Source of the DNA: Lota lota
Lineage: Eukaryota > Chordata > Actinopteri > Gadiformes > Lotidae
Reading direction: 5' to 3'
DNA: 64,000 nt
Assembly: GCA_026745465.1 (NCBI GenBank)
Contig: JACYXH010000409.1
Coordinates: forward strand, 264,001-328,000
The translations under genes were made by a program, and so were the position numbers. Position 1 is the stretch's first letter; each line of letters opens with the position of its first letter. The notes under the pieces were generated by a model, which did not search any database, was not told the DNA's origin, and saw only the letters and a program-made list of their open reading frames with translations. Shown piece by piece: positions 11,205-64,000 of the stretch.

Positions 11205-11238
11205 ATGAATATGGAGGCTGTTGGATTCATCTTTATTG
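11205..11238 (+). other. Gene A exon 1, signal-peptide start
   Basis: ATG to the donor G|GTAAGT encodes MNMEAVGFIFI plus one base. The paralogs have MNMDKFGFIFI (gene B) and MSMEGVGLIFI (gene C) with the same 34-nt coding length and the same donor. The acceptor at 11416/11417 follows a long pyrimidine tract and supplies TC, giving a Val codon across the junction and extending the hydrophobic core. Confidence 0.75.
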
Positions 11239-14200
11239 GTAAGTCTTGATTGATATTAATTGTTCAAGAAAGTGTAAATCCAGAAAAAACTAAAGTACCA
11301 TGCATTTTGTGAATTGCAATATGTTCTGTCATTGAGTCCCTATACTAAGGACAAAAGACAAGAGAAAAACAATACTTTTTTTGTTCTGTTCCTCATCTTC
11401 CTCTACAAAACTACAGTCCTAACCACAATAACAAGAAAAGGAATGGCAGGACAAACAATGACAATAATAGGACCAACAACGACAACGGCAGGACAAACGA
11501 CAACAACTGTTGAACCGACAACGATAACTGCAGGACAAACAACGACAACGGTAGGAACGACAACGACAACAGCAGGACCAACATCAACGACTGCTTTACC
11601 AACATTTACTGCAGGACTAACAACAACTGCTGCACAAACAACAACTGCAGGACAAACAACAACTGCTGCACCAACAACAACAACTACTTCACCAACAACA
11701 TCTGCAGGACAAACATTGACAACTGCAGGACCAACAACGTCAACTGAAGGACCGAAAACGACAACTGCAGGTCCAACAATGACAACTGCAGGATCTACAA
11801 CAACAACAACAACTGTAGGACAAACAATGACAATTGCAGAAAAAACAACAACTGATGCACCAACAACAACAACTGATGCACCAACAATGCCAACTGCAGG
11901 TACGACACCAACAACTGCAGCATCAACAACAACAACTGCAGCACCAACAACAACAACTGCAGGACCACCAACAACAACGGCAGGACCAACAACTGAAGGA
12001 CCCAACACTACTACTGCAGGACAAACAACAACAACTTTAGAACCGACAACGACAACTGCAGGACAAAGAACAACAACTGAAGGACCAACAATGTCAACTA
12101 AAGGCCCAACAACGACAACTGCAGGACCCAGCACAACTGCTGCAGGACCCAACACTACTACTGCAGGACAAACAACGACAACTTTAGAACCGACAACGAC
12201 AACTGCAGGACAAAGAACAACAACTGGAGAACAAACATTAACAACTGCAGGACAAACAACGACAACTTTAGAACCGACAACGACAACTGCAGGACAAAGG
12301 ACAACAACTGGAGAACAAACATTAACAACTGCAGGACAAACAACGACAACTGTAGGCCCCACAACGACAACTGTAGGACCGACACCAACAACTGCAGCAC
12401 CGACAACAACAACTAAAGAAAGGATAACAACAACTGCAGGACCAACAACAACAACTGCAGGACCCACCACTACTACAGCAGGACCAACAACGACAACTGC
12501 AGGACCAACAATGACAACTGCTGCACCAACAACATTTGTAGGACCAAAAACGACAACTGCAGGACCCACCACAACTACTGAAGGACCAACAATGTCAACT
12601 AAAGGACCGACAACGACAACTGCAGGCCCAACAACGACAACGGTAGGACCGACACCAACAACTGCAACACCGACAACAACTGCAGCAACAACAACAACTG
12701 CCGGACCAACAACAACAACTTCTGGGCCCACCACTACCACGGCAGGACCCACCACTACTACTGCAGGACCAACAACGACAACGGTAGGAACGACAACGAC
12801 AACTGCAGGACCAACATCAGCGACTGCTTTACCAACATCAACTGCAGGACTAACAACAACTGCTGCACAAACGACAACTGCAGGCCCAACAACGACAACG
12901 GTAGGACCGACACCAACAACTGCAACACCGACAACAACTGCAGCAACACCAACAACTGCCGGACCAACAACAACAACTTCTGGGCCCACCACTACCACGG
13001 CAGGACCCACCACTACTACTGCAGGACCAACATCAGCGACTGCTTTACCAACATCAACTGCAGGACTAACAACAACTGCTGCACAAACGACAACTGCAGG
13101 ACAAACAACAACTGCTGCACCAACAACAATAACTACTTCACCAACAACATCTGCAGGACCAACAACAACAACTGCAGGACCGACAACAACAACTGCAGGA
13201 CCAACAACATCTACTGCTGCACCAAAAACAACAACTGTAGGACCGAAAACGACAACTGCAGGACCCACCACAACTACTGCAGGACCAACAAAGTCAACTG
13301 TAGGACCGACACCGACAACTAAAGGCCCAACAACGACAACTGCAGGACCAACAACGACAACTAAAGGACCCACAATGACAACTAAAGGACAAACAACAAC
13401 AACTGCTGCACCAACAATGACCACTGCAGGACTGACATCAACAACTGCAGGACTGACAACTTCAGCACAGACAACAACAACTGCAGGACCGACAACAACA
13501 ACTGCAGGACCAACCATTACTACAGCAAGACCAACAACGACAACTGCAGGTCCAACAACGACAACTGCAGGACCAAAAGCGACAACAACGAGACCCACCA
13601 CAACAACTTTAGAACCGACTTCAACACCTGCAGGACAAAGAACAACAACTGAAGGACCAACAATGTCAACTAAAGGACCGACAACGACAACTCCAGGCCC
13701 AACAACGACAACTATAGGACCGACAGCAACAACTGCAACACCGACAACAACTGCAGCAACAACAACAACAACTAGCGGACCAACAACAACATATTCTGGA
13801 CCCACCACTACCACGGCAGGAACGACAACGACAACTGCAGGACCAACATCAACGACTGCTTTACCAACATCAACTGCAGGACTAACAACAACTGCTGCAC
13901 AAACAACAACTGCAGGACAAACAACAACTGCTGCACCAACAACAACAACTACTTCACCAACAACATCTGCAGGACAAACAAGAACAACTGCAGGACCGAC
14001 AACAACAACAGCAGGAGAAACAACATCTACTGCTGCACCAAAAACAACAACTGTAGGACCGACAACGACAACTGCAGGAACAACATCAACTGCCGGACCA
14101 ACCATTACTACAGCAAGACTAACAACGACAACTGCAGGTCCAACAACGACAACTGCAGGTCCAACAACGACAACTGCAGGACCAACAACGACAACAACGA

Positions 14201-17200
14201 GACCCACCACAACAACTGCAGGACCAACAACGACAACTGCAGGACCAACAGCAACAACTGCAGGACCAACACCAACAACTGCAGCACCAACACCAACAAC
14301 TGCAGCACCGACAAAAACAACTGCAGAAAGGATAACAACAACTGAGGGCCCAACAATGACAACTGCAGGAACAACAACGTCAACTGAAGGACCGACAATG
14401 ACAACTGCAGGTCCAACAATGACAACTGCAGGACCAACAAAAACAACTGTAGGACCAACAATGACAACTGCACCAACAACAACAACTGATGCACCAACAA
14501 TGCCAACTGCAGGACCGACACCACCAACTGCAGCACCGACAACAACAACTGCAGGACCAACAACAACAACTGCAGGACCAACAACAACAACTGCAGGACC
14601 CAGCACAACTGATGCAGGACCCAACACTACTACTGCAGGACAAACAACGACAACTTTAGAACCGACAACAACAACTTCAGGACAAAGAACAACAACTGGA
14701 GAACAAACATTGACAACTGCAGGACAAACAACGACAACTGTAGGCCCCAAAACGACAACTGTAGGACTGACACCAACAACTGCAGCACTGACAACAACAA
14801 CTACAGAAAGGATAACAACAACTGCAGGACCAACAACAACAACTGCAGGACCCACCACTACTACAGCAGGACCAACAACGACAACTGCAGGACCAACAAT
14901 GACAACTGCTGCACCAACAACAATTGTAGGACCGAAAACGACAACTGCAGGACCCACCACAACTACTGAAGGACCAACAATGTCAACTAAAGGACAGACA
15001 ACGACAACTGCAGGCCCAACAATGACAACTGTAGGACCGACACCAACAACTGCAACACCGACAACAACTGCAGCAAAAACAACAACTACCGGACAAACAA
15101 CAACAACTTCTGGACCCACCACTACCACGGCAGGACCCACCACTACTACTGCAGGACCAACAACGACAACGGTAGGAACGACAACGACAACTGCAGGACC
15201 AACATCAACAACTGCTTTACCAATAACAACTGCAGGACTAACAACAACTGCTGCACAAACGACAACTGCAGGACAAACAACAACTGCTGCACCAACAACA
15301 ACTACTTCACCAACAACATCTTCACGACCAACAACAACTGCAGGACCGACAACAACAACTGCAGGTCCCACCACAACTACTGCAGGACCAACAACGTCAA
15401 CTGTAGGACCGACACCGACAATTAAAGGCCCAACAACAACAACTGCAGGACTGACACCAACAACTGCAGGACTGACAACTTCAGCACCGACAACAACAAC
15501 TGTAGGACCGACAACAACAACTGCGGGACCTACATCAACCGCAGGACCAACCATTACTACAGCAAGACCAACAACGACAACTGCAGGACCGACAACAACA
15601 ACTGCAGGACCAAAATCAACCGCAGGACCAACCATTACTACAGCAAGACCAACAACGACAACTGCAGGTCCAACACTGACAACTGCAGGACCAACAACGA
15701 CAACAACGAGACCCACCACAACAACTGCAGGACCAACAACGACAACTGCAGGACCAACAGCAACAACTGCAGGACCAACAACGACAACTGCAGGACCAAC
15801 AACGACATCTGCAGAACCAATAACAACAACTGCGGCACCAACCACAACTACTACAGGACCAACGACAACCGCAGGGTCCACAACGAGAACTGCTGCACCA
15901 ACGACAACTACAGGACCAACAACGACAACTGCAGGTCCCACAAAAACAACAACTGTAGGACCCACATCAACAACTGCAGGACCCACAGCTACTACAGCAG
16001 GACCCACAACAACAACTGCAGGTCCCACAACAACACCTGACTCTCAAGTGACTCCTGCAGCACACGAAGGTACTCAGGATTTGACATTCAGTTTGAAACG
16101 CACATTTGAAAGCTCTTTGTCAGATCCTACGTCCACAGCCTATCAGAGGCTGGCTAATGAAGTCACAAGAGAGGTGAGATAAAAAACTATTTCTTGAATA
16201 TGCTATAGCCTTACAACTATCACTTATTCTAATGCAGTTCACATTCAATATCTATAATGTTCTTAACCATTGACCTCAGGTAAACAAAGGCTACAGATCA
16301 CGATTACCACAGACTTATTCCCGAAGTGTAATTAGGTCTTTCCGGTAAGCATTTAATTCCCTTCCTCAAATTGAATGTTTAATGGTTGTTCACCATTTGT
16401 TATAAATATTGTTCATAAATCTATGTTACAACATTATTATTCTAAATAATTCAATTTTGAAAACGTAATAGTTGATCAACTTTTAACCTATTTGTGGTTG
16501 TCTTTCTTTGTGTTTCTAGGAGCGGCTCAATCATTGTGGATATGACTCTGGTTTTCGTTAACCAAACAGTTGTTCCAAACGGAAGCGTGGCAGAGCAGAC
16601 ACTGCAGGACGCAATTATTAACGGCACCACCAACCTCAATGTGGAAGTTTCTACTATTAAAGCGAGTAGGTTGAACTAAATTTCAATTTTAGAGTAAAAC
16701 CCAGTAGTACCGGTTATTGTGATTGAAATATATCTTCTATAAGCAGTACAAGATGGCAATGTGTTCTTTCAATCTTGGCGAACCACATGTTCTCTCTTCA
16801 TCCCTATTGAAGAGATGTACATATTCCATCATTAATAAATACAAGTGAAGCAGTATTTAAAGTTTTATTTAGAAATGATGGAATCAAAAAGAATTGGCTC
16901 TAGATAGATCAGGACAAATTCTCATAAATGCCACAAAGCTTATTCAAACAACACTAATTAATAGTATAAATGATTTGGAAGTATAGAGCCAAGCAAACAA
17001 AATGACAATTATGTCAATGTTGTGATTCAAGCACTTAGAAATCATGGTAAAATACAAATTCACATGCAATGCAGACATATTATATCTAAAACAATTTGTT
17101 TGGTTATTTTAAAGCTACAACATCACCAACAACTGCAGGACCCATTACAATGACAACAGCACAACCAACGACAACAACTGCAGGACCAACCGCAACTACT

Positions 17201-20200
17201 GCAGGGCCCACAACGACGACAGCAGGACCAACAACGGCAACTGCAGGACCAACAACAACTACTGCAGGACAGACAACGACAAATGCAGGAACCACAGAAA
17301 CAACTGCAGGACCCACAACTACTACTAATGGACCCAACACAACTACTTCTGGACCCACAACAACTACTGCAGGACCAACAACAACAACTGCAGGACCCAC
17401 CACTACTACTGCAGGACCCACGACGACAACAGGACCAACAACGACAACTGCAGGTCCAACAACGACAACTGCAGGACCAACAACGACAATTGCAGGACCC
17501 ACTACAACTACTGCTGGACCCACCGCAACTACCGCTGGACCCACCACAACAACTACAGGACAAGCAACGACAACTGCAGGCCCAACAACGACAACTGTAG
17601 GACCGACACCAACAACTGCTACACCTACAACAACAACTGCAGCACCGACAACAACAATTGCAGAAAGAATAACAACAACTGAGGGCCCAAGACTGACAAC
17701 TGCAGGATCCACCACAACTACTGCAGGACCCACCGCTACCACTGTTCGACCAACAATGACAACTATAGGACAAACAATGACAACTGCAGGACAAACAACA
17801 ACAACTGCAGGACCCACCACTACTACTGCAGGACCCACGACGACAACTGCACAACAAACAACAACTGCAGGACCAACAACAACAATTGCAGGATCAACAA
17901 CGACAACTGCAGGACTAACAATGACATCTGCAGAACCAATAACGACAACTGTGGCACCCACCACAACTACTGCAGGACCAACGACAACCGCAGGACCCAC
18001 AACGACAACTACAGGATTAACAACGACAACTGCAGGACCAACAACGACAACTGTAGGATCAACGACAACTGCAAGACCCACTACAACTACTGTTGGACAA
18101 ACCGCAACTACCGCTGGACCCACCATGACAACTACAGGACCAACAACAACAACCGCAGAACCAAAAACAACAACTGCAGAACCAACAACGACAACTGCAG
18201 AACCAACAACGACAACTACAGGACCCACCACAGCTACTGCTGCACCAACAACCACATCTGCAAAACCAATAGCAACAACTGTGGCACCCACCACAACTAC
18301 TGCAGGAGCAATGACAACCGCAGGACCCACACTGACAACTGTTGCACCAACGACAACTACAGGACCAACAACGACAACTGCAGGTCCCACTACAACTACT
18401 GCTGGACCCACCGCAACTACCGCTGGACCCACCACAACAACTACAGGACCAGAAACGACAACTGCTGGCCCGACAACGACAACTGTAGGACCGACACCAA
18501 CAACTGCAACACCTACAACAACAACTGCAGCACCGACAACAACAATTGCAGAAAGGATAACAACAACTGAGGGCCCAACACTGACAACTGCGGGACCAAC
18601 AACATCAACTCAAGGACCGACAACGACAACTGCAGGCCCAACAATGACAACTGTTGGACCAACAACGACAACTGCAAGACAAACAACAACAACTGCTGCA
18701 CCAACAACAACAACAGCTGAACCAACAACAACAACTGTCGGACCAATAATGACAACTGCAGGATCCACCATAACTACTGCAGGACCCACCACTACCACTG
18801 TTCGACCAACAATGACAACTGTAGGGCAAACAATGACAACTGCAGGACAAACAACAACAACTGCAGGACCCACCACTACTACTGCAGGACCCACGCTGAC
18901 AACTGCAGAACAAACAACAACAACTGAAGGACCAGCAACGACAACTGCAGGCCCAACAACGACAACTGTAGGACCGACACCAACAACTGCAACACCTACA
19001 ACAACAACTGCAGCACCGACAACAACAATTGCAGAAAGGATAACAAATACTGAGGGCCCAACACTGACAACTGCAGGATCCACCACAACTACTGCAGGAC
19101 CCACCACTACCAATGTTCGACCAACAAGGACAACTGTAGGACAAACAATGACAACTGCAGGACAAACAACAATAACTGCAGGACCAACCACTACTACTGC
19201 AGGACCCACGACGACAACTGCACAACAAACAACAACAACTTCAGGACCAACAACTACAATTGCTGGATCAACAACAACAACTGCAGGACTAACAACGACA
19301 TCTGCAGAACCAATAACGACAACTGTGGCACCCACCACAACTACTGCAGGACCAACAACAACAACTGCAGAACCAATAACCACAACTGCAGAACCAACAA
19401 CAACAACTGCAGAACCAACAACAACAACTGCAGGACCCACCACAGCTACTGCTGCACAAACAACCACATCTGCAGAACCAATAACAACAACTGTGGCACC
19501 CACCACAACTACTGCAGGACGAACAACAACCGCAGGACCCACATTGACAACAGTTGCACCAACGACAACTACAGGACCAACAACGACAACTACAGGACCA
19601 ACAACGACAACTGCAGGACCAACAACAACAACTGCAGGACCCACTACAACTACTGCTGGACCCACCGCAACTACTGCTGGACCCACCACAACAACTACAG
19701 GACCAGCAATGACAACTGCAGGCCCGACAACGACAACTGTAAGACCGACACCAACAACTGCAACACCTACAACAACAACTGCAGCACCGACAACAACAAT
19801 TGCAGAAAGGATAACAACAACTGAGGGCCCAACACTGACAACTGCAGGACCAACAACATCAACTGAAGGACCGACAACGACAACTGCAGGCCCAACAATG
19901 ACAACTGTTGGACCAACAACGACAACTGCAAGACAAACAACAACAACTGCTGCACCAACAACAACAACAGCTGAACCAACAACAACAACTGTCGGACCAA
20001 TAATGACAACTGCAGGATCCACCATAACTACTGCAGGACCCACCACTACCACTGTTCGACCAACAATGACAACTGTAGGTCAAACAATGACAACTGCAGG
20101 ACAAACAACAACAACTGCAGGACCCACCACTACTACTGCAGGACCCACGCCGACAACTGCAGAACAAACAACAACAACTGAAGGACCAGCAACGACAACT

Positions 20201-23200
20201 GCAGGCCCAACAACGACAACTGTAGGACCGACACCAACAACTGCAACACCTACAACAACAACAACTGCAGCACCGACAACAACAATTGCAGAAATGATAA
20301 CAAAAACTGAGGGCCCAACACTGACAACTGCAGGATCCACCACAACTACTGCAGGACCCACCACTACCACTGTTCGACCAACAATGACAACTGTAGGACA
20401 AACAATGACCACTGCAGGACAAACAACAACTGCAAGACCAACCACTACTACTGCAGGACCCACGACGACAACTGCACAACAAACAAGAACAACTTCAGGA
20501 CCAACAACTACAATTGCTGGATCAACAACGACAACTGCAGGACTAACAACGACATCTGCAGAACCGAGAACGACAACTGTGGCACCCACCACAACTACTG
20601 CAGGACCAACAACAACAACTGCAGAACCAACAACCACAACTGCAGAACCAACAACAACAACTGCAGGACCCACCACAGCTACTGCTGCACAAACAACCAC
20701 ATCTGCAGAACCAATAACAACAACTGTGGCACCCAACACAACTACTGCAGGACCAACAACAACCGCAGGACCCACATTGACAACTGTTGCACCAACGACA
20801 ACTACAGGACCAACAACAACAACTACAGGACCAGCAATGACAACTGCAGGCCCGACAACGACAACTGTAGGACCGACACCAACAACTGAAGGACCGACAA
20901 CGACAACTGCAGGCCCAACAATGACAACTGTTGGACCAAGAACGACAACTGCAAGACAAACAACAACAACTGCTGCACCAAGAACAACAGCTGAACCAAC
21001 AACAAATGTCGGAACAACAATGACAACTGCAGGATCCACCACAACTACTGCAGGACCCACTACAACTACTGCTGGACCAAGACCAACAACTGCAGAACCA
21101 ACAACCACAACTGCAGAACCAACAACGACAACTGCAGAACCAACAACGACAACTGCAGGACCCACCACAGCTACTGCAGCACCAATATCAACAAATGCAG
21201 GATCCACAACGACAACTGCAGAACCAACAACAACAACTGCAGGACCCAGCACAGCTACTGCTGCACAAACTACCACATCTGCAGAACCAATAACGACAAC
21301 TGTGGCACCCACCACAACTACTGCAGGACCAACAACAACCGCAGGACCCACACTGACAACTGTTGCACCAACGACAACTACAGGACCAACAACGACAACT
21401 GCTGGACCAACAACAACAACTGCAGGACCCACTACAACTACTGCTGGACCCACCGCAACTACTGCTGGACCCACCACAACAACTACAGGACCAGCAATGA
21501 CAACTGCAGGCCCGACAACGACAACTGTAAGACCGACACCAACAACTGCAACACCTACAACAACAACTGCAGCACCGACAACAACAATTGCAGAAAGGAT
21601 AACAACAACTGAGGGCCCAACACTGACAACTGCAGGACCAACAACATCAACTGAAGGACCGACAACGACAACTGCAGGCCCAACAATGACAACTGTTGGA
21701 CCAACAACGACAACTGCAAGACAAACAAAAACAACTGCTGCACCAACAACAACAACAGCTGAACCAACAACAACAACTGTCGGACCAATAATGACAACTG
21801 CAGGATCCACCATAACTACTGCAGGACCCACCACTACCACTGTTCGACCAACAATGACAACTGTAGGTCAAACAATGACAACTGCAGGACAAACAACAAC
21901 TGCAGGACCCACCACTACTACTGCAGGACCCACGCCGACAACTGCAGAACAAACAACAACAACTGAAGGACCAGCAACGACAACTGCAGGCCCAACAACG
22001 ACAACTGTAGGACCGACACCAACAACTGCAACACCTACAACAACAACTGCAGCACCGACAACAACAATTGCAGAAATGATAACAAAAACTGAGGGCCCAA
22101 CGCTGACAACTGCAGGATCCACCACCACTACTGCAGGACCCACCACTACCACTGTTCGACCAACAATGACAACTGTAGGACAAACAATGACCACTGCAGG
22201 ACAAACAACAACTGCAGGACCAACCACTACTACTGCAGGACCCACGACGACAACTGCACAACAAACAAGAACAACTTCAGGACCAACAACTACAATTGCT
22301 GGATCAACAACGACAATTGCAGGACTAACAACGACAACTGCAGAACCAATAACGACAACTGTGGCACCCACCACAACTACTGCAGGACCAACAACAACAA
22401 CTGCAGAACCAACAACCACAACTGCAGAACCAACAACAACAACTGCAGGACCCACCACAGCTACTGCTGCACAAACAACCACATCTGCAGAACCAATAAC
22501 AACAACTGTGGCACCCACCACAACTACTGCAGGACCAACAACAACCGCAGGACCCACATTGACAACTGTTGCACCAACGACAACTACAGGACCAACAACA
22601 ACAACTACAGGACCAGCAATGACAACTGCAGGCCCGACAACGACTACTGTAGGACCGACACCAACAACTGAAGGACCGACAACGACAACTGCAGGCCCAA
22701 CAATGACAACTGTTGGACCAAGAACGACAACTGCAAGACAAACAACAACAACTGCTGCACCAACAACAACAACAGCTGAACCAACAACAAATGTCGGAAC
22801 AACAATGACAACTGCAGGATCCCCCACAACTACTGCAGGACCCACTACAACTACTGCTGGACCAAGACCAACAACTGCAGAACCAACAACCACAACTGCA
22901 GAACCAACAACGACAACTGCAGAACCAACAACGACAACTGCAGGACCCACCACAGCTACTGCAGCACCAATATCAACAAATGCAGGATCCACAACGACAA
23001 CTGCAGAACCAACAACAACAACTGCAGGACCCAGCACAGCTACTGCTGCACAAACAACGACATCTGCAGAATCAATAACGACAACTGTGGCACCCACCAC
23101 AACTACTGCAGGACCAACAACAACCGCAGGACCCACACTGACAACTGTTGCACCAACGACAACTACAGGACCAACAACGACAACTACAGGACCAACAACG

Positions 23201-26200
23201 ACAACTGCAGGACCAACAACAACAACTGCTGGACCCACCGCAACTACTGCTGGACCCACCACAACCACTACAGGACCAGCAATGACAACTGCAGGCCCGA
23301 CAACGACAACTGTAAGACCGACACCAACAACTGCAACACCTACAACAACAACTGCAGCACCAACAACAACAATTGCAGAAAGGATAACAACAACTGAGGG
23401 CCCAACACTGACAACTGCAGGACCAACAACATCAACTGAAGGACCGACAAAGACAACTGCAGGCCCAACAATGACAACTGTTGGACCAACAACGACAACT
23501 GCAAGACAAACAAAAACAACTGCTGCACCAACAACAACAACAGCTGAACCAACAACAAATGTCGGAACAACAATGACAACTGCAGGATCCACCACAACTA
23601 CTGCAGGACCCACTACAACTACCGCTGGACCAAGAACAACAACTGCAGAACCAACAACCACAACTGCACAACCAACAACGACAACTGCAGAACCAACAAC
23701 CACAACTGCAGGAGCCACCACACCTACTGCAGCACCAATATCAACAAATGCAGGATCCACAACGACAACTGCAGGACCAACAACGACAACTGCAGGACAA
23801 ACAACAACAACTGCTGCACCAACAACAACAGCTGAACCAACAACAACAACTGTCAGACCAACAATGACAACTGCAGGTTCCACCACAACTACTGCAGGAC
23901 CTACCACTGTTCGACCAACAATGACAGCTGTAGGACAAACAACGACAACTGCAGGACAAACAACAACAACTCCTTCACCAACAACAACAACAGCTGCACC
24001 AACAACATCAAGTGCTGCACCAACAACAATTGCCGGACCAAAACTGACAACTACAGGAACCACCACTACTACTGCAGGACAAACAACTACAACTGCAGGA
24101 CAAACAACTATAACTGTAAGCCCCACAACGACAACTGCTTCACATACAACAACTGCAGGACTAACAACAACAACTGCAGGATCAGCAACAACTGCTGCAC
24201 CAACAACAAAAGCTGCACCAATAACAACTACTGCTGTACCAACAACAATAACTGCAGGACCAACAACGACAACTGTTGGACCACCAACAACAACTGCAGG
24301 ACAAACAATAACAACTGCTGCACCAAAAACAACAAAAGCTTTACCATCAACAACAACTGCCGGACCAACACAGACAACTGCAGGACAAACAACGACAATT
24401 GTAAGCCCCACAATGACAACTCCTTCACCAAGATCAACTGCAGGACCTACCACAACTATTACAGGAACCATCACTACAACTGAAGGACCAACAACAACAA
24501 CAACTGTAGAACCAACATTGACAACTAAAGGACCCACAACGACAACTAAAGGACAAACAACAACAACTGCTGCACCAACAATGACAACTGCAGGACTGAC
24601 ACCAACAACTGCAGGACTGACAACTTCAGCACCGACAACAACAACTGCAGGACCGACAACAACAACTGCAGGAACCATCACTACAACTGAAGGACCAACA
24701 ACAACAACTGTAGAACCAACATTGACAACTAAAGGACCCACAACGACAACTAAAGGACAAACAACAACAACTGCTGCACCAAGAATGACAACTGCAGGAC
24801 TTACACCAACAACTGCAGGACTGACAACTTCAGCACCGACAACAACAATTGCAGGACCGACAACAACAACTGCAGGATCAACATCAACTGCAGGACCCAC
24901 CCTTACGACAGCTGCTGGACCATTACCAACAACTTCTGCACCAACAACAACAACTGCTGCACCAAAGACAACTGCAGGACAAACAACGACAACTGTAGGC
25001 CCCACAACGACAACTGCTTCACCATCAACAACAACTGCAGGACTAACAACAACTGCAGCACCAACAACAGCAACTGTTTCACCAACAACAACAACTACTG
25101 CAGGGCAAACAACGACAACTGTAGGCCCCGCAACCACATTTACTGCACCAACAACGACAACTGCAGGACAAATGACAACTGCTGGAATGACAACAACAAC
25201 TGCAGGACTGACATCAACAACTGCAGGATCCACCACAACTGCTGCAGGACCAACAATGTCAACTGTAGGACTGACAACGTCAACTTCAGGACCAACAACG
25301 ACAACTGCAGGACCAACAACGACAACTATAGGACCAACAACGACAACTGCAGGACCAACAACGACAACTGCTGCACGAACAACAACAACTACTAATGTCC
25401 CAAGTAAATTGAACACTAGTAGTACATTTTTAGATTACTAACCAGTACTACTGGCTATTGTGATTAACACATATCTTCTTCAAGCAGTAGAAAATAGCAA
25501 TGTGTTCTTTTAATCTTGCCGAACCCCATATACTGTCTTCATCCTTATTGAAGAGATGTAAATAGTCAATCAAAAATACATGTAAATGAAGTATTAACAT
25601 AATTTATATTCAGAAATCATGGGATCTCAAATAAATGGCTCAAGATATTTCAAGATAAATTCTCATAAAGCCCACAAAGCTCATTCAAACAACGTTAATG
25701 AATAGTAAAAATGATTTGGAAGTATAGAGCAAAGCAAAAGTAACTCGTAGCATGTCAATTATGTCAATGTTGTTTAGAAATCATGGCTGAAATACTAATT
25801 TACATGCAATGTAGCCATATAGGCTCTAACAGACTTTGTTTGATTCCTTTAAAGCTACAACAACACCAACAACAGCTGGACACATAACAGCCACACTAGA
25901 ACCCTCAACTACAACCAGGCCCACTACAACTCCAACTACACCAGGGCAGACTACAACTACACCTGTAACCACAACTACCACAACTACACCTGGAACCACT
26001 ACAACTACACCTGGACCCACTACAACTACAACTACACCTGGAACCACTACCACTACAAATACATCTGTACACACTACAACTACAACAACACCTGTACCCA
26101 TTACAACTACTACCATTGACTCTACACAGTCTCCTGCAGCAGACGAAGGCACTTTAGATTTGAGTTTCAGTTTGATGCGCACATTTGAAAGCTCTTTGTC

Positions 26201-27296
26201 AGATCCTACCTCCACACCCTATCAGAGGCTGGCTAACGAAGTCACAAGAGAGGTGAGATAATAATATATGTGTACATTATAATATATATATAATAACGTT
26301 TTGATTACATTTGCATTATTCTTAGAACAATCACTCATTTCAATGCAACTCATATTCCATAGTATTAATGATCTTAATATTGACTTTAGGTTAACAAAGG
26401 CTTCAGATCCGTATTCACACGCACTTATTCCCGATGTTTAATACGATCTTTCCGGTAAGCATTTCATTCTCTTCCTCAATTTGAATGTTCGATGGTTGTT
26501 CCGTTTTTCTTAACCTATATATTATATTTATATATTTTACAACATTATTATTATTATAAATAGTTCAATTTTAGAAATGTAATATATGATCAACTTTTAA
26601 CCTATTTGATGTTGTCTTTCTTTGTGTTTCTAGTAATGGCTCAATCATTGTGGCCACGACTCTGGTCTTCCATAATCAAACAGTTGTTCCGAGTGGAATC
26701 ACAGCAGAGCAGGTATTCCGGAGTGTAGTAGCCACGGGCATCACCAACCTGAATGTGAACGTTTCTACTATTACCGCAAGTAAGTTGAACACTAGAATTA
26801 AAATTTAAACAAGTATTAACAAGAAGTGCTGGCTATTGTGATTAACAAATATCTTCTAACAGCAGTATAGCACTGTGTTCTTTTAATCTTAAATAAATGT
26901 TCTCTCTTCATTCTTATTGAAGAGATGTACATATTCAATCAAAATACATACAACTTGTATGTATTTTGTAATCAGAAAGGATGGGATCAAGATATACATC
27001 AGGATAACTTCTCATAAAGGCCACAAAGTATTTTTCATAGAACATTAAAGTATAGTAAGAGCCAAGCAATACTAATGCACAGAATGACTATTATGTCAAT
27101 AATGTTGTTTAAGCATTTAGAAATCACTGTTCAAATACTTATGTAATGCAGACATATTGGCTGTAACACAATGCGTTTGGTTATTTTAACAGCAACAACC
27201 ACCTCAGGAGGACCCACTCTGAAAATGACCATCGCAACTGCTTTTTGTTTGCCTGTCTTGTTGACGGTCATCAAAGGACTGTTGTTCATTACATAG
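11205..27296 (+). CDS. Gene A: giant SEA-domain, threonine-rich mucin-like surface protein
   Basis: I assemble nine coding exons: 11205-11238, 11417-16173, 16280-16344, 16520-16665, 17115-25403, 25855-26252, 26390-26454, 26634-26779 and 27193-27296. They total 14,004 nt, exactly 4,667 codons plus stop, and all phases agree (1,0,2,1,1,0,2,1). Order: signal peptide (MNMEAVGFIFI plus VLTTI), Thr-repeat domain 1, SEA 1, Thr-repeat domain 2, a short Thr/Pro stretch, SEA 2, and a C-terminal hydrophobic segment after SGGP. The tail has no cytoplasmic part, so GPI anchoring is the simplest reading; a short transmembrane end is the alternative. The repeats (typically GPTTTTA) would be heavily O-glycosylated. 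No CysD or VWD domain is seen, so it is not a gel-forming mucin. It heads a tandem family with genes B and C. The exon chain is inferred from splice sites, phase and paralog comparison, without transcript evidence. Exons 2 and 5 could also be used alternatively, as both follow a phase-1 junction. Confidence 0.85.
11440..16030 (+). repeat. Mucin tandem array 1 of gene A
   Basis: About 4.6 kb of imperfect 21-bp units with consensus ACAACTGCAGGACCAACAACG, read as Thr-Thr-Ala-Gly-Pro-Thr-Thr. By length that is roughly 220 units. Variants such as AAPTTTT, TLEPTTTT, EGPTMST and KERITTT recur in blocks, showing local duplications. The array is in one open frame with no break. CTGCAG (PstI) occurs in most units. 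Confidence 0.95.
16060..16665 (+). other. SEA domain 1 of gene A (exons 2 end, 3 and 4)
   Basis: The domain begins LTFSLKRTFESSLSDP at the end of exon 2, continues in the 65-nt exon 3 (VNKGYRSRLPQTYSRSVIRS) and finishes in exon 4 (SGSIIVDMTLVFVNQTVVP). It matches SEA domains of MUC1-type mucins, where the equivalent FRPGSVVV site self-cleaves between Gly and Ser. Here the cleavage motif is G-S-I-I-V and looks intact. An N-glycosylation sequon NQT follows. Cleavage itself is inferred. Confidence 0.85.
17115..25403 (+). repeat. Mucin tandem array 2 of gene A (single 8.3-kb exon)
   Basis: One exon of 8,289 nt with an open frame throughout, about 395 units of the 21-bp type. It is more diverged than the arrays of gene C, with units such as AEPTTTT, ARQTTTT, VRPTMTT and IAERITT. 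Higher-order blocks of about 1.25 and 1.78 kb recur. The exon starts after ..TTTTAAAG with CT ACA ACA and ends ACTACTAATGTCCCAA before GTAAATTG. That donor and the intron after it match those that follow SEA exon 4 elsewhere. Confidence 0.9.
25855..26779 (+). other. Short Thr/Pro stretch and SEA domain 2 of gene A (exons 6-8)
   Basis: Exon 6 (25855-26252) has a small Thr/Pro region of about 80 residues built from TTTPGTTT- and TTTPVP-like pieces rather than the GPTTTTA unit, then LDLSFSLMRTFESSLSDP. The 65-nt exon 7 (26390-26454) gives VNKGFRSVFTRTYSRCLIRS and exon 8 (26634-26779) gives NGSIIVATTLVFHNQTVVP. The cleavage motif G-S-I-I-V is present. This SEA resembles gene B more than SEA 1 does (NGxIIV, and STITA at the end). 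Confidence 0.85.
27193..27296 (+). other. Gene A last exon: hydrophobic GPI-signal-like tail
   Basis: The exon encodes TTTSGGPTLKMT, then a hydrophobic run (TAFCLPVLLTVI), then KGLLFIT and stop. Small residues S-G-G followed by a short spacer and a terminal hydrophobic segment fit a GPI-attachment signal. Gene B has a near-identical tail. A lone Lys near the end makes a classic transmembrane anchor less likely but does not exclude it. Confidence 0.65.
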
Positions 27297-31128: not shown

Positions 31129-32508
31129 ATGAATATGGACAAATTTGGATTCATCTTTATTGGTAAGTAACAGTCTAGTGTTATATATTTATGTATATGC
31201 ATATATAAATGTATGTGTGTATATACTGAATTGTCCACAACAATGATTCTGATAGTCCTCTCCCTCCGACAAATCTGCAGTATTAACAATTATAAACAGA
31301 GTGGTTCCTGCTGAAATGACAAGTACTGCAGTACCAACAACTACTACACCTGACTCTACGAAGCCTCCTACAGCAGACGAAGGGACTTTATCTTTGAACT
31401 TCAGTTTGAGACGGACATTTGAAAGCTCTTTGTCAGATCCTACTTCCACAGCCTATAAGGGGCTGGCAATTGAAGTCACAAGAGAGGTGAGATAATGTTT
31501 AAAATTGTTATTACATTTGCCTTGGAGCAATCATTTATTTCAACGCAGTTCATATTCAATACCTATAATGTGCTTAATTATTGACCTTAGGTAAACAAAG
31601 GCTGCAGAGCCATATTTCCACTCACTTATTCCCGATGCGTAATTAGGTCTTTCAGGTAAGCATTTTATTCTCTTCCTCGAAAATGTAATGTTCGACGGTT
31701 GTTCAGAATTTTGTATGCATTTTTTTATTTGTCAACATTATTATTATTATAAATAATTTTACATTTGGAAATGCTATATATGATCAACTTTAACCACATT
31801 TTGGTTGTCTTTCTTTGCATTCCTAGTAATGGCACTATCATTGTGGCTATGACTCTGGTCTACCGTAACCAAACAGTTGTTCCGACCACAATCCTGGTAG
31901 AGAAGGCATTGAGGGACGTAATAACCGCAGGCATCACCGACCTCAATGTGGACATTTCTACTATTACCGCAAGTAAGTTGAACACTAGAATTACATTTTT
32001 TGACTAATAACCAGTAGAACTGGCTATTGTGATTAACATGTCTAAAAGCATTATAGCAATGTGTTATTTTAATCATGGTCTACCCTCTCTTCATCCTTAT
32101 TGAAGAGATGTACATATTCAATCAGAAATACATACGAGTGAAGCATTAACTTAGTTTGTAATCAGAAAGGATGGGTTCAAGAAGAAATGGCTCAAGATAT
32201 ATCAGGATAACTTCTCATAAAGGCCACAATGTATTTTTCAAACTACATTAAATAATAGAACCATTGTTTTGGAGAGCCAAACAATACTAAAGCAAAGCAT
32301 GACTATTATGTCAATGTTGCATTTAGAAATCACTGTTCAAATACTAATTCACATGTAATGCAGACATATTTGCTGTAACACAATGTGTTTGGTTATTTTA
32401 ACAGCAACAACCACCTCAGGAGGACCCACTCTGAAAATGACCATCACAACTGCTTTTTGTTTGCCTGTCTTGTTGACGGCCATCAAAGGACTGTTGTTCA
32501 GTACATAG
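31129..32508 (+). CDS. Gene B: compact SEA-domain surface protein, paralog without mucin array
   Basis: Five exons: 31129-31162, 31281-31486, 31591-31655, 31827-31972 and 32405-32508, totalling 555 nt or 184 codons plus stop, with phases 1,0,2,1 as in gene A. The protein starts MNMDKFGFIFI plus VLTII (signal peptide). It has a short Thr-rich linker (STAVPTTTTPDSTKPP), then the SEA domain (LSLNFSLRRTFESSLSDP; VNKGCRAIFPLTYSRCVIRS; NGTIIVAMTLVYRNQTVVP), then a GPI-signal-like tail with SGGPTLKMT and a hydrophobic end. The usual G-S at the SEA cleavage site is G-T here. The Thr array present in genes A and C is reduced to one short linker, so this is the bare scaffold of the family. All splice sites are canonical and no frame break is seen, so it looks intact. 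Its upstream DNA differs from that of genes A and C. Confidence 0.82.
31380..31972 (+). other. SEA domain of gene B
   Basis: Split by introns at the same positions and phases as the other copies, with the same 65-nt middle exon. The cleavage-site Ser is replaced by Thr (N-G-T-I-I-V). Two Cys occur in the middle exon (VNKGC, YSRC); gene A SEA 2 has one and SEA 1 has none. Confidence 0.8.
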
Positions 32509-39485: not shown

Positions 39486-39498
39486 TGACTGGCGGAAC

Positions 39499-39506
39499 TA
39501 TAAATA
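39499..39506 (+). promoter_or_regulatory. TATA box in U block copy 3
   Basis: TATAAATA followed by GGGCATGCGAGCACTGGG as in copy 1. Confidence 0.4.
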
Positions 39507-47600: not shown

Positions 47601-50600
47601 CTGCAGGACCCACCACAACTACTGCAGGACCAACAACAACAACTGCAGCACCCACCACAACTACTGCAGGACCCACCACTACTACAGAAGTACCAACAAC
47701 GACAACTGCAGGGCCAACAACGACAACTGCAGGACCAACAACAACGACTGCAGGACCCACCACAACTACTGCAGAACCAACAACGACAACTGCAGGACCC
47801 ACCACAACAACTGCAGGACCCACTACAACTACGGCAGGACCAACCACAACAACTGCAGGACCCACAACGACAACTGCAGGACCCACCACAACTACTGCAG
47901 GACCAACAACGACAACTGCAGGACCCACCACAACTACTGCAGGACCCACCACTACTACAGAAGTACCAACAACGACAACTGCAGGACCAACAACGACAAC
48001 TGCAGGACCAACAACAACGACAACAGGACCCACCACAACTACTGCAGAACCAACAACGACAACTACAGGACCCACCACAACAACTGCAGGACCCACAACA
48101 ACTACGGCAGGACCAACCACAACAACTGCAGGACCAACAACGACAACTGCAGGACCCACCACAACTACTGCAGGACCCACCACTACTACAGAAGTACCAA
48201 CAACGACAACTGCAGGACCAACAACGACAACTGCAGGACCTACCACAACTACTGCAGGACCAACAACGACAACTGCAGGACCAACAACAACGACTGCAGG
48301 ACCCACCACAACTACTGCAGAACAGACAAAGACAACTGCAGGACCGATCACAACAACTGCAGGACCAACAACGAGAACTGCAGGACCTACCACAACTACT
48401 GCAGGACCCACAATGATAACTGCAGGACCATCAACAACTGCAGGACCCACCACAACTACAACTGCAGGACCCACCACAACTACTGCAGGACCAACAACAA
48501 CAACTGCAACACCCACCACAACTACTACAGGACCCACCACTACTACAGAATTACCAACGACAACTGCAGGACCAACAACAACGACTGCAGGACCCACCAC
48601 GACTGCAGGACCAACAACGACAACAGCAGGACCAACAACAACGACTACAGGACCCACCACAACTACTATAGAACCAACAACGACAACTGCAGGACCCACC
48701 ACAACTACTGCAGAATCAACTACAACAACTGCAGGAGCCACCTCTACTACGGCAGGACCAACAACAACAACTGCAGGACTTTCTACAACTACTGCAGGAC
48801 CAACCACAACAACTGCTGGACCTACAACGACAACTGCAGGACCAACAACAACTGCAGGACCAACAACGACAACTGCAGGACCTACCACAACTACTGCAGG
48901 ACCAACCACAACAACTGCTGGACCCACAACGACAACTGCAGGACCAACAACAACTGCAGGACCCACCACAACTACTACTGCAGGACCCACCACAACTACT
49001 GCAGGACCAACAACATCAACTGCAGCACCCACCACAACTACTGCAGGACCCACCACTACTACAGAAGTACAAACAACGACAACTGCAGGGCCATCAACGA
49101 CAACTGCAGGACCAACAACAACGACTGCAGGACCCACCACAACTACTGCAGTACCAACAACGACAACTGCAGGACCCACCACAACAACTGCAGGACCCAC
49201 TACAACTACGGCAGGACCAACCACAACAACTGCAGGACCCACAACGACAACTGCAGGACCCACCACAACTACTGCAGGACCAACAACGACAACTGCAGGA
49301 CCCACCATAACTACTGCAGGACCCACCACTACTACAGAAGTACCAACAACGACAACTGCAGGACCAACAACGACAACTGCAGGACCAACAACAACGACAA
49401 CAGGACCCACCACAACTACTGCAGAACCAACAACGACAACTACAGGACCCACCACAACAACTGCAGGACCCACAACAACTACTGCAGGACCAACCACAAC
49501 AACTGCAGGACCAACAACGACAACTGCAGGACCCACCACAACTACTGCAGGACCCACCACTACTACAGAAGTACCAACAACGACAACTGCAGGACCAACA
49601 ACGACAACTGCAGGACCCTACCACAACTACTGCAGGACCAACAACGACAACTGCAGGACCAACAACAACGACTGCAGGACCCACCACAACTACTGCAGAA
49701 CAGACAAAGACAACTGCAGGACCGATCACAACAACTGCAGGACCAACAACGAGAACTGCAGGACCTACCACAACTACTGCAGGACCCACAATGATAACTG
49801 CAGGACCATCAACAACTGCAGGACCCACCACAACTACAACTGCAGGACCCACCACAACTACTGCAGGACCAACAACAACAACTGCAACACCCACCACAAC
49901 TACTACAGGACCCACCACTACTACAGAATTACCAACGACAACTGCAGGACCAACAACAACGACTGCAGGACCCACCACGACTGCAGGACCAACAACGACA
50001 ACAGCAGGACCAACAACAACGACTACAGGACCCACCACAACTACTATAGAACCAACAACGACAACTGCAGGACCCACCACAACTACTGCAGAATCAACTA
50101 CAACAACTGCAGGAGCCACCTCTACTACGGCAGGACCAACAACAACAACTGCAGGACTTTCTACAACTACTGCAGGACCAACCACAACAACTGCTGGACC
50201 TACAACGACAACTGCAGGACCAACAACAACTGCAGGACCAACAACGACAACTGCAGGACCTACCACAACTACTGCAGGACCAACCACAACAACTGCTGGA
50301 CCCACAACGACAACTGCAGGACCAACAACAACTGCAGGACCCACCACAACTACTACTGCAGGACCCACCACAACTACTGCAGGACCAACAACATCAACTG
50401 CAGCACCCACCACAACTACTGCAGGACCCACCACTACAATAGAAGTACCAACAACGACAACTGCAGGGCCATCAACGACTACTGCAGGACCAACAACAAC
50501 GACTGCAGGACCCACCACAACTACTGCAGAACCAACTACGACAACTGCAGGACCCACCACAACAACTGCAGGACCCACTACAACTACGGCAGGACCAACC

Positions 50601-53600
50601 ACAACAACTGCAGGACCCACAACGACAACTGCAGGACCCACCACAACTACTGCAGGACCAACAACGACAACTGCAGGACCCACCGTAACTACTGCAGGAC
50701 CCACCACTACTACAGAAGTACCAACAACGACAACTGCAGGACCAACAACGACAACTGCAGGACCTACAACAACTTCTGCAGGACCAACAACAACAACTGC
50801 AGGACCAACAATAACGACTGCAGGACCCACCACAACTACTGCAGAACAGACAAAGACAACTGCAGGACCCACCACAACAACTTCAGGACCAACAACGAGA
50901 ACTGCAGGACCTACCACAACTACTGCAGGACCCACAATGACAACTGCAGGACCAACAACAACTGCAGGACCCGCAACAACTACAACTGCAGGACCCACCA
51001 CAACTACTGCAGGACCAACAACAACAAATGCAGCACCCACCACAACTACGGCAGGACCCACCACCACTACAGCAGTACCAACAACGACAACTGCAGGACC
51101 AACAACAACGACTGCAGGACCCACCACAACGACTGCAGGACCAACAACGACAACAGCAGGACCAACAACAACGACTGCAGGACCCACCACAACTACTACA
51201 GAACCAACAACGACAACTGCAGGACCCACCACAACAACTGCAGGACCCACTACAACTACGGCAGGACCAACCACAACAACTGCAGGACCCACAACGACAA
51301 CTGCAGGACCCACCACAACTACTGCAGGACCAACAACGACAACTGCAGGACCCACCACAACTACTGCAGGACCAACCACAACTACTGCAGGACCAACCAC
51401 AACAACTGCAGGACCCACAACAACTGCAGGACCAACAACGACAACTGCAGGACCCACCACAACTACTGCAGGACCAACCACAACTACTGCAGGACCAACA
51501 ACAACAACTGCAGGACCCACAACTACCACAGCAGGACCCACAACCATTCTCGCACCCACAACTTCTACTGCAGGACCCACAACTACTGCAGAACAGACAA
51601 AGACAACTGCAGGACCCACCACAACAACTGCAGGACCAACAACGACAACGTCAGGGCCAACAACGACAACTGCAGTACCAACAACGACAACTGCAGAACC
51701 CACCACAACTACTGCAGGACCAACCACAACTCCTGCAGGACCAACAACGACAACTGCAGGACCCACCACAACTACTGCCGGACCAACAACGACAACTGCA
51801 GGACCCACCACAACAACTGCTGGTCCAACCACAACAACAGCAGGAACCACAACAACTACAACTGCAGGACCCACCACAACTACTGCAGGACCAACCACAA
51901 CAACTGCAGGAGCCACCACTACTACGGCAGGACCAACAACGACAACTGCAGGACCCACTACAACTACTGCAGGACCAACCACAACAACTGCAGGACCCAC
52001 AACGACAACTGCAGGACCCACTACGACTACTGCAGGACCAACAACGACAACTGCAGGACCCACCACAACTACTACAGGACCCATTACTACTACAGAAGTA
52101 CCAACAACGACAACTGCAGTACCAACAACGACAACTGCAGGACCCACAACAACAACTGCAGGACCAACAACGACAACTGCAGGACCCACCACAACTACTG
52201 CAGGACCAACAACGACAACTGCAGGACCCACCACAACTACTGCAGGACCCACCACTACTACAGAAGTACCAACAACGACAACTGCAGGGCCAACAACGAC
52301 AACTGCAGGACCAACAACAACGACTGCAGGACCCACCACAACTACTGCAGGACCAACAACGACAACTGCAGGACCAACAACAACTGCAGGACCAACAATG
52401 ACAACTGCAGGACCCACCACAACTACAGCAGGACAAACCACAACTACTGTAGGACCAACAACAACAACTGCAGGACCCACAACTACCACAGCAGGACCCA
52501 CAACCATTCTCGCACCCACAACCTCTACTGCAGAACCCACAACTACTACAGCAGTTCCCACAACAACAACTGTAGGACCCACATCAACAACTGCAGGTCC
52601 CACAACAACAACTACTCTCAAGTGACTCCTGGAGCACACGAAGGTACTCAGGATTTGACATTCAGTTTGGAACGCACATTTGAAAGCTCTTTGTCAGATC
52701 CTAAGTCCACAGCCTATCAGGGGCTGGCTAATGAAGTCACAAGAGAGGTGAGATAAACAATTATTTATTGAATATGCATTAGCCTTACAACAATCACTTA
52801 TTTTAATGCAGCTCAAATTCAATATCTATAATGTGCTTATTCACTGACCTCAGGTAAACAAAGGCTACAGATTACGATTTCCAAATACTTATTCCCGAAG
52901 TGTAATTAGGTCTTTCCGGTAAGCATTTATTTCCCTTCCTCAAATGGAATATTTAATGGTTGTTCACCATTTGTAATAAATATTTTTCATATATTTATTT
53001 TACAACATTATTATTATAAATAATTCAATTTTGAAAATGTAATAGTTGATCAACTTTTAACCTATTTGTTGTTGTCTTTCTTTGTGTTTCTAGGAGCGGC
53101 TCAATCATTGTGGATATGACTCTGGTCTACGTTAACCAAACAGTTGTTCCGACCGGAAGCGTGGCAGAGCAGACACTAAAGGACGCAATAACCTCAAACA
53201 TCACCAACCTACCTGGGCTGAACGTTTCTACTATTAACACGAGTAGGTTGAACACTAGGTTGACACTTTTAGAGTTCAACCCAGTAGTACAGGCTATTGT
53301 GATTAACGCATATCTTCTACAAGCAGTAGAAGATGGCAATGTGTTCTTTCAATCTTGGCGAAACCCATGTTCTCTTTGCATCCCTATTGAAGAGATGTAC
53401 TTATTCCATCAAAAGTACATACAAGTGTTGTAGTAATTTAATTTTTATTCAGAAATAATGGAATCAAACATAAATGGCTCTCGATAGATCAGTACAAATT
53501 CTCATGAATGCCGCAAAGCTTAATCAAACAACATTAATTAATAGTAGAAATGATATTGAAGTATAGAACCAAGCAAACAAAATGACAATTATGTCAATGA

Positions 53601-62600: not shown

Positions 62601-64000
62601 GACCCACCACGACTACTGCTGGACCAACAGCGACAACTGCAGGACCCACCACTATTACTGCAGGATCAACGACAACTGCAGGACCAACAACGACAACTGC
62701 AGGACCCACCACAACTACTGCAGGACAAACAACGGCAACTGCAGGACCCACAACGACAACTGCAGGGCCAACATCGACAACTGCAGGGCCAACATCGACA
62801 ACTGCAGGGCCAACATCGACAACTGCAGGACCCACAACGACAACTGCAGGACCCACCACAACTACTGCAGGACCCACCACTACTACAGAAGTACCAACAA
62901 CGACAACTGCAGGACCAACCACAACAACTGCAGGACCCACAACGACAACTGCAGGACCCACCACAACTACTGCAGGACCCAACACTACTAAAGAAGTACC
63001 AACAACGACAACTGCAGGACCAACAACGAGGACTGCAGGACCCACCACAACTACTGCAGGACTAACAACGACAACTGCAGGACCAACTACAACGACTGAA
63101 GTACCCACAACAACAACTGCAGGACCAATAACGACAACTGCAGGACCCACCACAACTACTGCAGGACCAACAACGACAACTGCTGCACCCACCACAACTA
63201 CTGCAGGACCCACTAGTACTACAGAAGTACCAACAACGACAACTGCAGGGCCAACAACGACAACTGCAGGACCATCAACGACTGCAGGACCCTCCACGAC
63301 AACTGCAGGGCCAACAACAACGACTGCAGGACCCACCACAACTACTGCAGAACCAACAACGACAACTGCAGGACCCACCACAACTACTGCAGGACCAACC
63401 ACAACAACTGCAGGACCAACAACGACAACTGCAGGGCCAACAACGACAACTGCAGGACCAACAACGACAACTGCAGGACCCACCACAACTACTGCAGGAC
63501 CCACCACTACTACTGCTGGACCAACAGCGACAACTGCAGGACCCGTCACTATTACTGCAGGATCAACGACATTGCAGGACCAACAACGACAACTGCAGCA
63601 CCCACCTCAACTACTGCAGGACCCACTACTACTACAGAAGTACCAACAACCGACAACTGCAGGACCAACAACGACAACTGCAGTACCCACAACAACAACT
63701 GCAGGACCAATAACGACAACTGCAGGACCCACCACAACTACTGCAGGACCAACAACGACAACTGCAGCACCCACCACAACTACTGCAGGACCCACTACTA
63801 CTACAGAAGTACCCAACAACGACAACTGCAGGCCAACAACGACAACTGCAGGACCAACAACAAACTGCAGGACCCTCCACGACAACTGCAGGGCAACAAC
63901 AACGACTGCAGGACCCACCACAACTACTGCAGAACCAACAACGACAACTGCAGGACCCACCACAACTACTGCAGGACCAACCACAACAACTGCAGGACCG
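41688..64000 (+). CDS. Gene C: giant SEA-domain mucin-like protein, partial, with frame breaks
   Basis: Same plan as gene A, running off the window. Exons: 41688-41721 (MSMEGVGLIFI), 41914-52747, 52854-52918 (VNKGYRLRFPNTYSRSVIRS), 53094-53242 (SGSIIVDMTLVYVNQTVVP) and a second mucin exon from about 53716 onward. Phases match gene A. Exon 2 has three single-base indels relative to the Thr frame: an A missing at 46994/46995, an extra C at 49616-49618 and a base missing near 52613. The last puts a TGA at 52623-52625 and the SEA segment out of frame. The usual exon 5 acceptor AAAG|CT reads AACG|CT. Many further indels follow 58.49 kb. The gene is either a decaying copy or an intact gene with consensus errors in a hard-to-assemble repeat; the error reading is favoured because the damage lies in the arrays and the other exons are clean. 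The likely product is a surface mucin with SEA autocleavage. Confidence 0.72.
41950..52620 (+). repeat. Mucin tandem array 1 of gene C
   Basis: About 10.7 kb, roughly 510 units of the 21-bp repeat, much more uniform than in gene A. The common unit is GPTTTTA, with a regular variant EVPTTTT (from ACAGAAGTACCAACAACG) that recurs every few hundred bases. A 1,378-bp higher-order block is duplicated (the MITAGPSTT segment at 48413 and again at 49791). Confidence 0.95.
52640..53242 (+). other. SEA domain of gene C (exons 2 end, 3 and 4)
   Basis: LTFSLERTFESSLSDP at the end of exon 2, the 65-nt exon 3, and exon 4, which is 149 nt instead of 146 because of one extra codon (TNLPGLNVST against TNLNVEVST). 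G-S-I-I-V is intact. The splice sites are canonical, so selection or recent origin has kept this part clean. Confidence 0.82.
53716..64000 (+). repeat. Mucin tandem array 2 of gene C, reaching the window end
   Basis: More than 10 kb of 21-bp units. From 53716 to about 58490 the Thr frame is unbroken. After 58490 it is broken repeatedly by one-base gains and losses. Higher-order repeats are visible: a block of about 1,035 bp (AETTTTTVGQ segment at 55321 and 56356) and one of about 3 kb (AACACTACTAAAGAAGTACC near 59966 and 62981). No end of the exon is reached. Confidence 0.9.

Follow-up and report, generated by a model that had tools for sequence, protein, structure and literature searches.

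Gene layout and exon plan of the cluster

The 64,000-nucleotide (nt) window analysed here, positions 264001–328000 of contig JACYXH010000409.1 (C409) of the burbot, Lota lota, contains three consecutive genes on the plus strand, which share one exon plan and encode SEA domains followed by a hydrophobic C-terminal tail. Gene A (window positions 11205–27296) has nine exons encoding 4,667 amino acids (aa) without an inner stop, the small gene 2 (31129–32508) is intact with five exons encoding 184 aa and almost no threonine array, and gene B starts at 41688, runs past the end of the window and is frameshifted as assembled. The plan, found in all three, consists of a 34-nt start exon, an exon running into the SEA domain, and exons of 65 nt and of 146 or 149 nt, after which comes either a further mucin exon or the tail, with exon phases of 1, 0, 2 and 1 in the intact genes. 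The exon after the start exon finishes a short hydrophobic leader and, in genes A and B, continues through a threonine array thousands of bases long until it reaches the first part of the SEA domain.

The start exon of gene A (11205–11238) carries the start codon and the beginning of the predicted signal peptide (MNMEAVGFIFI..), ends at a gtaagt donor and has homologues in all six genes of the cluster described below. Exon 2 (11417–16173, 4757 nt) is an open frame with GT–AG borders that encodes the rest of the signal peptide, the first threonine array and the first part of SEA 1, a Pfam SEA domain of the internal type defined below. The middle of SEA 1 lies in exon 3 (16280–16344, 65 nt) and its C-terminal part in exon 4 (16520–16665, 146 nt), at the start of which stands the predicted cut site SGSIIV. 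The second array occupies exon 5 (17115–25403, 8289 nt), an open frame without SEA, and is followed by exon 6 (25855–26252, 398 nt) with a short threonine stretch and the first part of the proximal-type SEA 2, exon 7 (26390–26454, 65 nt) with its middle, exon 8 (26634–26779, 146 nt) with its end and the cut site NGSIIV, and exon 9 (27193–27296, 104 nt) with the tail TTTTSGGPTLKMTIATAFCLPVLLTVIKGLLFIT and the stop codon. The SEA-less second threonine exon stops right where the SEA donor used to lie, at window position 25403 in gene A and at C409:328831 in gene B, as seen when the donor region was compared by eye with that of a SEA exon. The SEA part was probably lost by a deletion that brought the array up against the bases preceding the former donor, and a single deletion preceding the separation of genes A and B would be the simplest reading of this comparison.

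Gene 2 consists of a 34-nt start exon (31129–31162, MNMDKFGFIFI..), an exon of 206 nt (31281–31486) with a short linker and the first SEA part in place of a giant array, a 65-nt exon (31591–31655), a 146-nt exon (31827–31972) with NGTIIV at the cut site and a 104-nt exon (32405–32508) with tail and stop; since its second exon is so short, the product would comprise SEA and tail and no bristle. In gene B, the 34-nt start exon (41688–41721) is followed by an exon of 10834 nt (41914–52747) with the first threonine array and the first part of SEA 1, a 65-nt exon (52854–52918), a 149-nt exon (53094–53242) with SGSIIV, and a second threonine array beginning at 53695 and extending beyond position 64000 of the window.

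When C409 was read from 194 to 408 kb, approximate matching recovered six start exons, 20 exons of 65 nt and six tails, which were paired into six genes. The burbot's own 575-Mb genome thus holds a 131-kb same-strand cluster of six genes and 20 SEA cassettes, which extends to both sides of the window. Gene I (C409:201660–215624), gene II (C409:228656–242306) and gene III (C409:250220–262563), all intact and on the plus strand, contain four, three and eight SEA units, respectively, followed by two in gene A, one in gene 2 and two in gene B, which ends at C409:332427. Five of the six gene models lack an inner stop and stay open from the start to the homologous stop, with lengths of 3763 (I), 3783 (II), 2196 (III), 4667 (A) and 184 aa (gene 2). 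The first codon of the start exon of gene I is GTG; the model begins instead at codon 3, an in-frame ATG that the other genes share in this position, so that this exon counts as 28 nt. GT–AG borders were found in 67 of 68 introns; a single acceptor of gene B departs from them. The second SEA exon measures 65 nt in all 20 units and the third 146 nt in 12 and 149 nt in eight, and the threonine exons of the cassettes have assembled lengths between 206 nt and about 11 kb. Each cassette, composed of a threonine exon, the 65-nt exon and the 146/149-nt exon, has phase 1 at both of its borders, which allows complete cassettes to multiply. With the SEA domain and tail of gene 2 as the query, at least 59 matches (E up to 1) were obtained in the genome, and all 59 fall on the plus strand of C409, in the interval 204.1–332.4 kb.

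The exon plan is real and not a product of chance, because the genes are alike across their introns and flanks as well, five of six models are open to a homologous stop and the repeats show an excess of synonymous differences in the threonine frame. The initial annotation of the window, made from its letters alone, had described three genes in a row sharing this plan and these phases as a tandem family of giant SEA mucins, perhaps specific to a lineage of fish. Plan, phases and tandem arrangement were all recovered; the row of three is correct for the window, and the family as a whole comprises six genes on both sides of it. The description as giant does not apply to gene 2, with 184 aa and few threonines, so a row of three giant genes was rejected.

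Two types of promoter can be told apart upstream of the start exons. Genes II, III, A and B share similar upstream DNA with TATAAA at −104, and genes I and 2 have a different upstream sequence with no TATA[AT]A within 200 bases. Intergenic stretches at window positions 6550–7695, 34718–36299 and 38229–39672 are repeated at 70–91% identity, indicating that the duplication units take in DNA between the genes. Threonine-rich frames of the same kind as those of the cluster, broken by stops, occur at C409:335129–336126, 2.7 kb downstream of gene B, and are possibly the relic of a seventh gene; neither the genome search with the SEA domain and tail of gene 2 nor the approximate exon matching gave an SEA match there.

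Threonine arrays and the reading frame of gene B

The arrays are composed of the heptad PTTTTAG, encoded by 21 nt. Threonine accounts for 49% of the residues of gene I, 50% of gene II, 33% of gene III and 48% of gene A, compared with 18% in gene 2, which has no array, and 25% in gene B as frameshifted. Serine is rare in gene A (145/4668). The two arrays of gene A span about 1,500 and 2,760 residues with two SEA links, and gene III distributes eight SEA links over 2,196 residues. A repeat region rich in proline, threonine and serine (PTS), as expected of a mucin and predicted to be O-glycosylated, is therefore present in the family, with gene 2 as the member without an array. VWD, the mark of gel-forming mucins, was absent from the ten protein pieces scanned, which came from all six genes and comprised SEA units, tails and a few threonine stretches.

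An open frame is in itself weak evidence of coding here, since the arrays also stay open over hundreds of codons in other forward and reverse frames. Coding was therefore judged from the differences among repeat units picked by DNA similarity, with gene 2 left out as it has a single unit. In the threonine frame, synonymous changes made up 824/1011 of the single-difference codons in gene I, 896/1076 in gene II, 211/358 in gene III, 817/1348 in gene A and 1968/2346 in gene B, compared with shares of 0.04–0.21 in the other two frames; part of this contrast is inherent, as synonymous sites are scarcer in those two frames, whereas the excess over the chance share of 0.33 is not. An earlier count over 1,049 units of the five intact genes had given 1966/2456 synonymous in the threonine frame against a chance share of 0.33, with units chosen by the proline of that frame and hence biased at that codon. 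Self-comparison of the array copies by BLAST returned no pairs in five regions and one short pair in a second try, despite their plain repetitiveness, and was replaced by direct alignment. The reading phase is kept in all 19 SEA-leading or array exons of the five intact genes; with a 21-nt repeat, gain or loss of whole units keeps the phase in any case, whereas single-base insertions or deletions would break it. For the arrays at window positions 11440–16040, 17110–25400 and 41940–64000, the frames other than the threonine frame remain open for hundreds of codons; an alternative-frame protein has been reported for MUC1 in the available part of PMC5074479.

As assembled, the first array of gene B switches frame twice, at about 46993 and about 49617, and relative to gene A a single base is missing just before the SEA part, at about 52610. 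The second array shows 18 switches between 58495 and 63990, several of them some twenty bases apart, and the acceptor before 53695 is CG instead of AG, with an in-frame AG ending 21 nt downstream. The arrays of gene A form one frame segment each, and in genes I, II and III, which were not segmented, the frame at one end matches that at the other with no stop. For 13 of the 20 switches in the arrays of gene B, the closest copies were aligned over 3,937 bases and differed by 71 substitutions and 43 frame-breaking gaps, compared with 5, 6 and 0 gaps and 202, 231 and 298 substitutions in three control regions within intact stretches (15 random places each). This contrast is overstated by an uncertain amount because the 13 places had been picked for an insertion or deletion, some of the stretches overlap, which leads to double counting of gaps, and the control copies have diverged further. 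Given this excess of gaps, the switches resemble errors of the consensus in a long repetitive stretch.

These observations bear on two alternatives to a family of intact coding genes. That the arrays are non-coding, satellite-like repeats lying between real SEA exons is favoured by the long open stretches in the other forward and reverse frames, which deprive an open frame of weight as proof; however, the excess of synonymous differences is confined to the threonine frame, phase is kept in all 19 relevant exons and the arrays are read in frame into SEA, which makes this alternative extremely improbable. For the same reason, that the constraint is specific to the threonine frame, a simple-repeat artefact was rejected. 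The case for gene B as a dying pseudogene, with real frameshifts and a truly defective acceptor, is more substantial: 20 frame switches fall within about 21 kb of arrays inside the window, in addition to that at the SEA border, the arrays of gene A are unswitched and the acceptor is not AG. Against this, the threonine frame of gene B is under the same constraint as in the intact genes, its SEA units and tail are intact, the copies at the switches are rich in gaps and poor in substitutions relative to the controls, and an AG in frame lies 21 nt past the CG, so that loss of the gene appears unlikely. As the constraint is unchanged, the SEA units and tail are intact and gaps are in excess, the switches are judged likelier to be consensus errors in a hard-to-polish repeat than the marks of a young pseudogene.

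SEA domains, the C-terminal tail and the proposed architecture

All ten scanned proteins, which together hold 11 of the 20 units (a two-unit protein giving two stretches), scored above the whole-protein cut-off for PF01390, so that the SEA assignment of the initial annotation stood up to the Pfam check it had proposed. At the cut site the 20 units read SGSIIV (8), SGSILV (5), SGSINV (1), NGSIIV (5) and, in gene 2, NGTIIV (1). The motif of self-cutting SEA domains is given as GSxxV with x being V or I (PMC9478142, available part); GSxxV occurs in 19 of the 20 units, its strict form in 13, and gene 2 has GTIIV. The SEA domains are thus probably self-cutting, as far as the motif can tell. An unrooted tree built from the DNA of the 20 units set the final unit of each gene, six in all, apart from the 14 others with a support of 100/100, which defines each multi-unit gene as a set of internal cassettes plus one proximal cassette. 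The two classes also differ at the cut site, where an asparagine precedes the glycine (NG[ST]) in all six proximal and none of the 14 internal units, creating an N-glycosylation sequon across the cut site. In gene III, units 1, 3 and 5 are near copies of one another, as are units 2, 4 and 6, which indicates recent multiplication of cassettes. Searches of viral and prokaryotic collections found no relatives, as expected for an animal gene.

The tails of the six genes consist of two to four threonines followed by SG[GV]PTLKMTI[TA]TAFCLPVLLT[VA]IKGLLF[SI][TI] and a stop. In all six, the most hydrophobic 15 residues end 0–2 residues from the C-terminus and six residues follow the lysine that lies within the hydrophobic stretch. 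The combination of a membrane span and a cytoplasmic tail that marks mucins of the MUC1/MUC3/MUC16 type was found in none of them, in agreement with the initial annotation, which had set the family apart from that type by a hydrophobic tail without a cytoplasmic domain. Signals for a glycosylphosphatidylinositol (GPI) anchor consist of small residues at the attachment site, where S-G-V is less typical, then a spacer and a hydrophobic end. S-G-G precedes the hydrophobic stretch in four genes and S-G-V in genes II and III; the tail is compatible with a GPI signal, with a serine as the putative attachment site in the four genes with S-G-G. It may instead cross the membrane once as a conventional span and leave a very short cytoplasmic end, making the products minimal transmembrane SEA mucins, reduced relatives of the MUC1-like or I-Muc type. 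A lysine follows about 16 hydrophobic residues in the tail LKMTITTAFCLPVLLTVIKGLLFST, as a stop-transfer signal could have it, and fish I-Muc combines SEA with a membrane span in the part of its description available (PMC3680472). However, the hydrophobic stretch reaches to within 0–2 residues of the end in every gene, S-G-G stands in four of six where a GPI attachment site would be, and the tails are too short to include a cytoplasmic domain of the kind present in the sea bream membrane mucins, for which the same source gives 26–52 aa; the single-span reading is a serious rival, although we regard it as rather unlikely.

Taken with the gene anatomy, these features lead us to favour, with moderate confidence, the view that the six tandem genes encode cell-surface mucins, each composed of a signal peptide, cassettes of threonine array and SEA, and a hydrophobic tail, in which the arrays would serve as bristles, the SEA domains would cut themselves and the tail would provide a GPI anchor. 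In such a mucin the threonine arrays would be O-glycosylated into stiff bristles, each SEA domain would self-cut between G and S during folding with its two pieces remaining joined non-covalently, and the tail would be exchanged for the GPI anchor. Such a protein would form a series of bristles joined by SEA links that can break and attached to the cell by a lipid or minimal anchor. Shear or a captured microbe could pull off segments of the mucin, while the cell would keep a stub and send no signal through a cytoplasmic tail. The genes would offer this design with one to eight cassettes and arrays of different length, gene 2 being a short SEA stub without a bristle. In SEA mucins generally, the SEA domain is described as cut in the endoplasmic reticulum, with the fragments held non-covalently, and as a mechanosensor with an ultimate function yet to be settled (PMC9578598, available part).

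Several observations weigh against this architecture. The gene models were read from the genomic sequence, and the assembled gene B carries frameshifts. Mean dN/dS (nonsynonymous to synonymous substitution rates) of the SEA parts is 0.70–1.00 by class and half, with single pairs at 0.27–1.21, which implies weak constraint on the SEA sequence. The 146/149-nt exon, with a mean identity of 0.82, is not more conserved than its adjoining introns at 0.81 and 0.84; the other two SEA parts, at 0.87 and 0.89, lie slightly above the introns. Gene 2 combines NGT at the cut site with the absence of an array. A single-sequence search against solved structures returned no SEA, and a profile of ten of the 20 units gave no SEA match below an E value of 0.3, the SEA structures 1ivz (presumably that of MUC16) and MUC1 appearing at 0.31 and at 1.7 and 2, respectively. 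With an unrelated chain ranked first by the same profile (E value 0.027), no support is drawn from solved structures. In the tail, a lysine lies within the hydrophobic stretch, genes II and III carry S-G-V, and a very short type I span with a seven-residue end (KGLLFST) would fit equally well.

A further-reaching proposal, advanced here only tentatively and with more doubt than confidence, is that the family may represent an undescribed class of vertebrate mucins, lipid-anchored multi-SEA 'breakable chain' mucins without a signalling tail, which arose from an amplified, phase-1 symmetric cassette and in which the proximal NG[ST] sequon may gate the break site.

Relation to known SEA proteins and surrounding loci

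Five of the six genes combine several SEA domains in one protein (two to eight; gene 2 has one), as MUC16 does in a membrane-attached mucin. Compared with the SEA domains of MUC16, those of the cluster alternate with giant threonine arrays, carry GSxxV in 19 of 20 cases and are not followed by a cytoplasmic tail. A precedent for the union of SEA and a GPI anchor is the 63-kDa sperm flagellar membrane protein of the sea urchin, a founding SEA protein that is GPI-anchored and contains EGF domains but no giant threonine array. The human MUC3A/MUC3B/MUC12/MUC17 cluster likewise consists of tandem genes with a very large PTS exon (exon 2 of both MUC3A and MUC3B) and SEA downstream, according to the available part of PMC9578598, whereas the burbot cluster lacks the cytoplasmic tail and repeats its cassettes. 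Among fish, I-Muc and Muc13 of the gilthead sea bream are membrane mucins with SEA beside the membrane, and differ in having a membrane span and, over the three sea bream membrane mucins, the cytoplasmic tails mentioned above (PMC3680472, available part). An unassigned MUC1-related protein of chicken, compared by description only, also places a PTS domain before SEA, and the available part of its report (PMC1552070) identifies no membrane span; it is encoded by a single gene and its N-terminus is not known.

The absence of a cytoplasmic tail excludes the family from the MUC1/MUC3/MUC16 type by definition, but PTS arrays, SEA, clustering and multiple SEA domains are shared, and the cluster is therefore classified as a variant of the known SEA membrane mucins. 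No description of such a family was found among the open-licence papers listed, a search outside most subscription journals and all sequence databases, and three heptad strings searched in the open-licence literature were likewise not found. Membrane mucins are usually seen as both a barrier and a signalling receptor. If the proposed architecture holds, a family that keeps a self-cutting SEA domain without a cytoplasmic tail would separate shedding from signalling in nature. Its cassette design, with symmetric phase-1 exons, one to eight copies, varied threonine exons and a natural member devoid of arrays, would offer ready-made variants in which the contribution of the SEA link could be tested against that of the bristle, and the cluster may also show why such loci are poorly assembled and annotated.

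Two further SEA loci of the same genome lie outside the cluster and likewise carry an SEA domain, with the motif GS[VI]VV. In these loci, L001 (1501–2511) and L002 (1501–1922), which we take to be IMPG2-like, one open frame runs from the middle of SEA through the GS site, and the second SEA intron of the mucin cluster seems to be absent.

Retroelement frames resembling Pol were recognized by eye between genes I and II (C409:219498–222560, minus strand). Within the window, open frames on the minus strand at 4075–5082 resemble a hAT-type transposase; the part at 4732–5082 matches Pfam DUF4371 at 28.8 bits against a cut-off of 32.1, and that at 4075–4728 gave a sub-threshold match only, to an unrelated Pfam family. 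Scans for Rfam families and tRNAs gave no hits. The downstream neighbours of the cluster are an aminergic receptor gene, most similar to 5-HT4 and trace-amine receptors (C409:350645–351775, plus strand), and an alpha-1 adrenergic receptor-like exon (C409:363339–364430, minus strand), and both receptor loci are useful for synteny.

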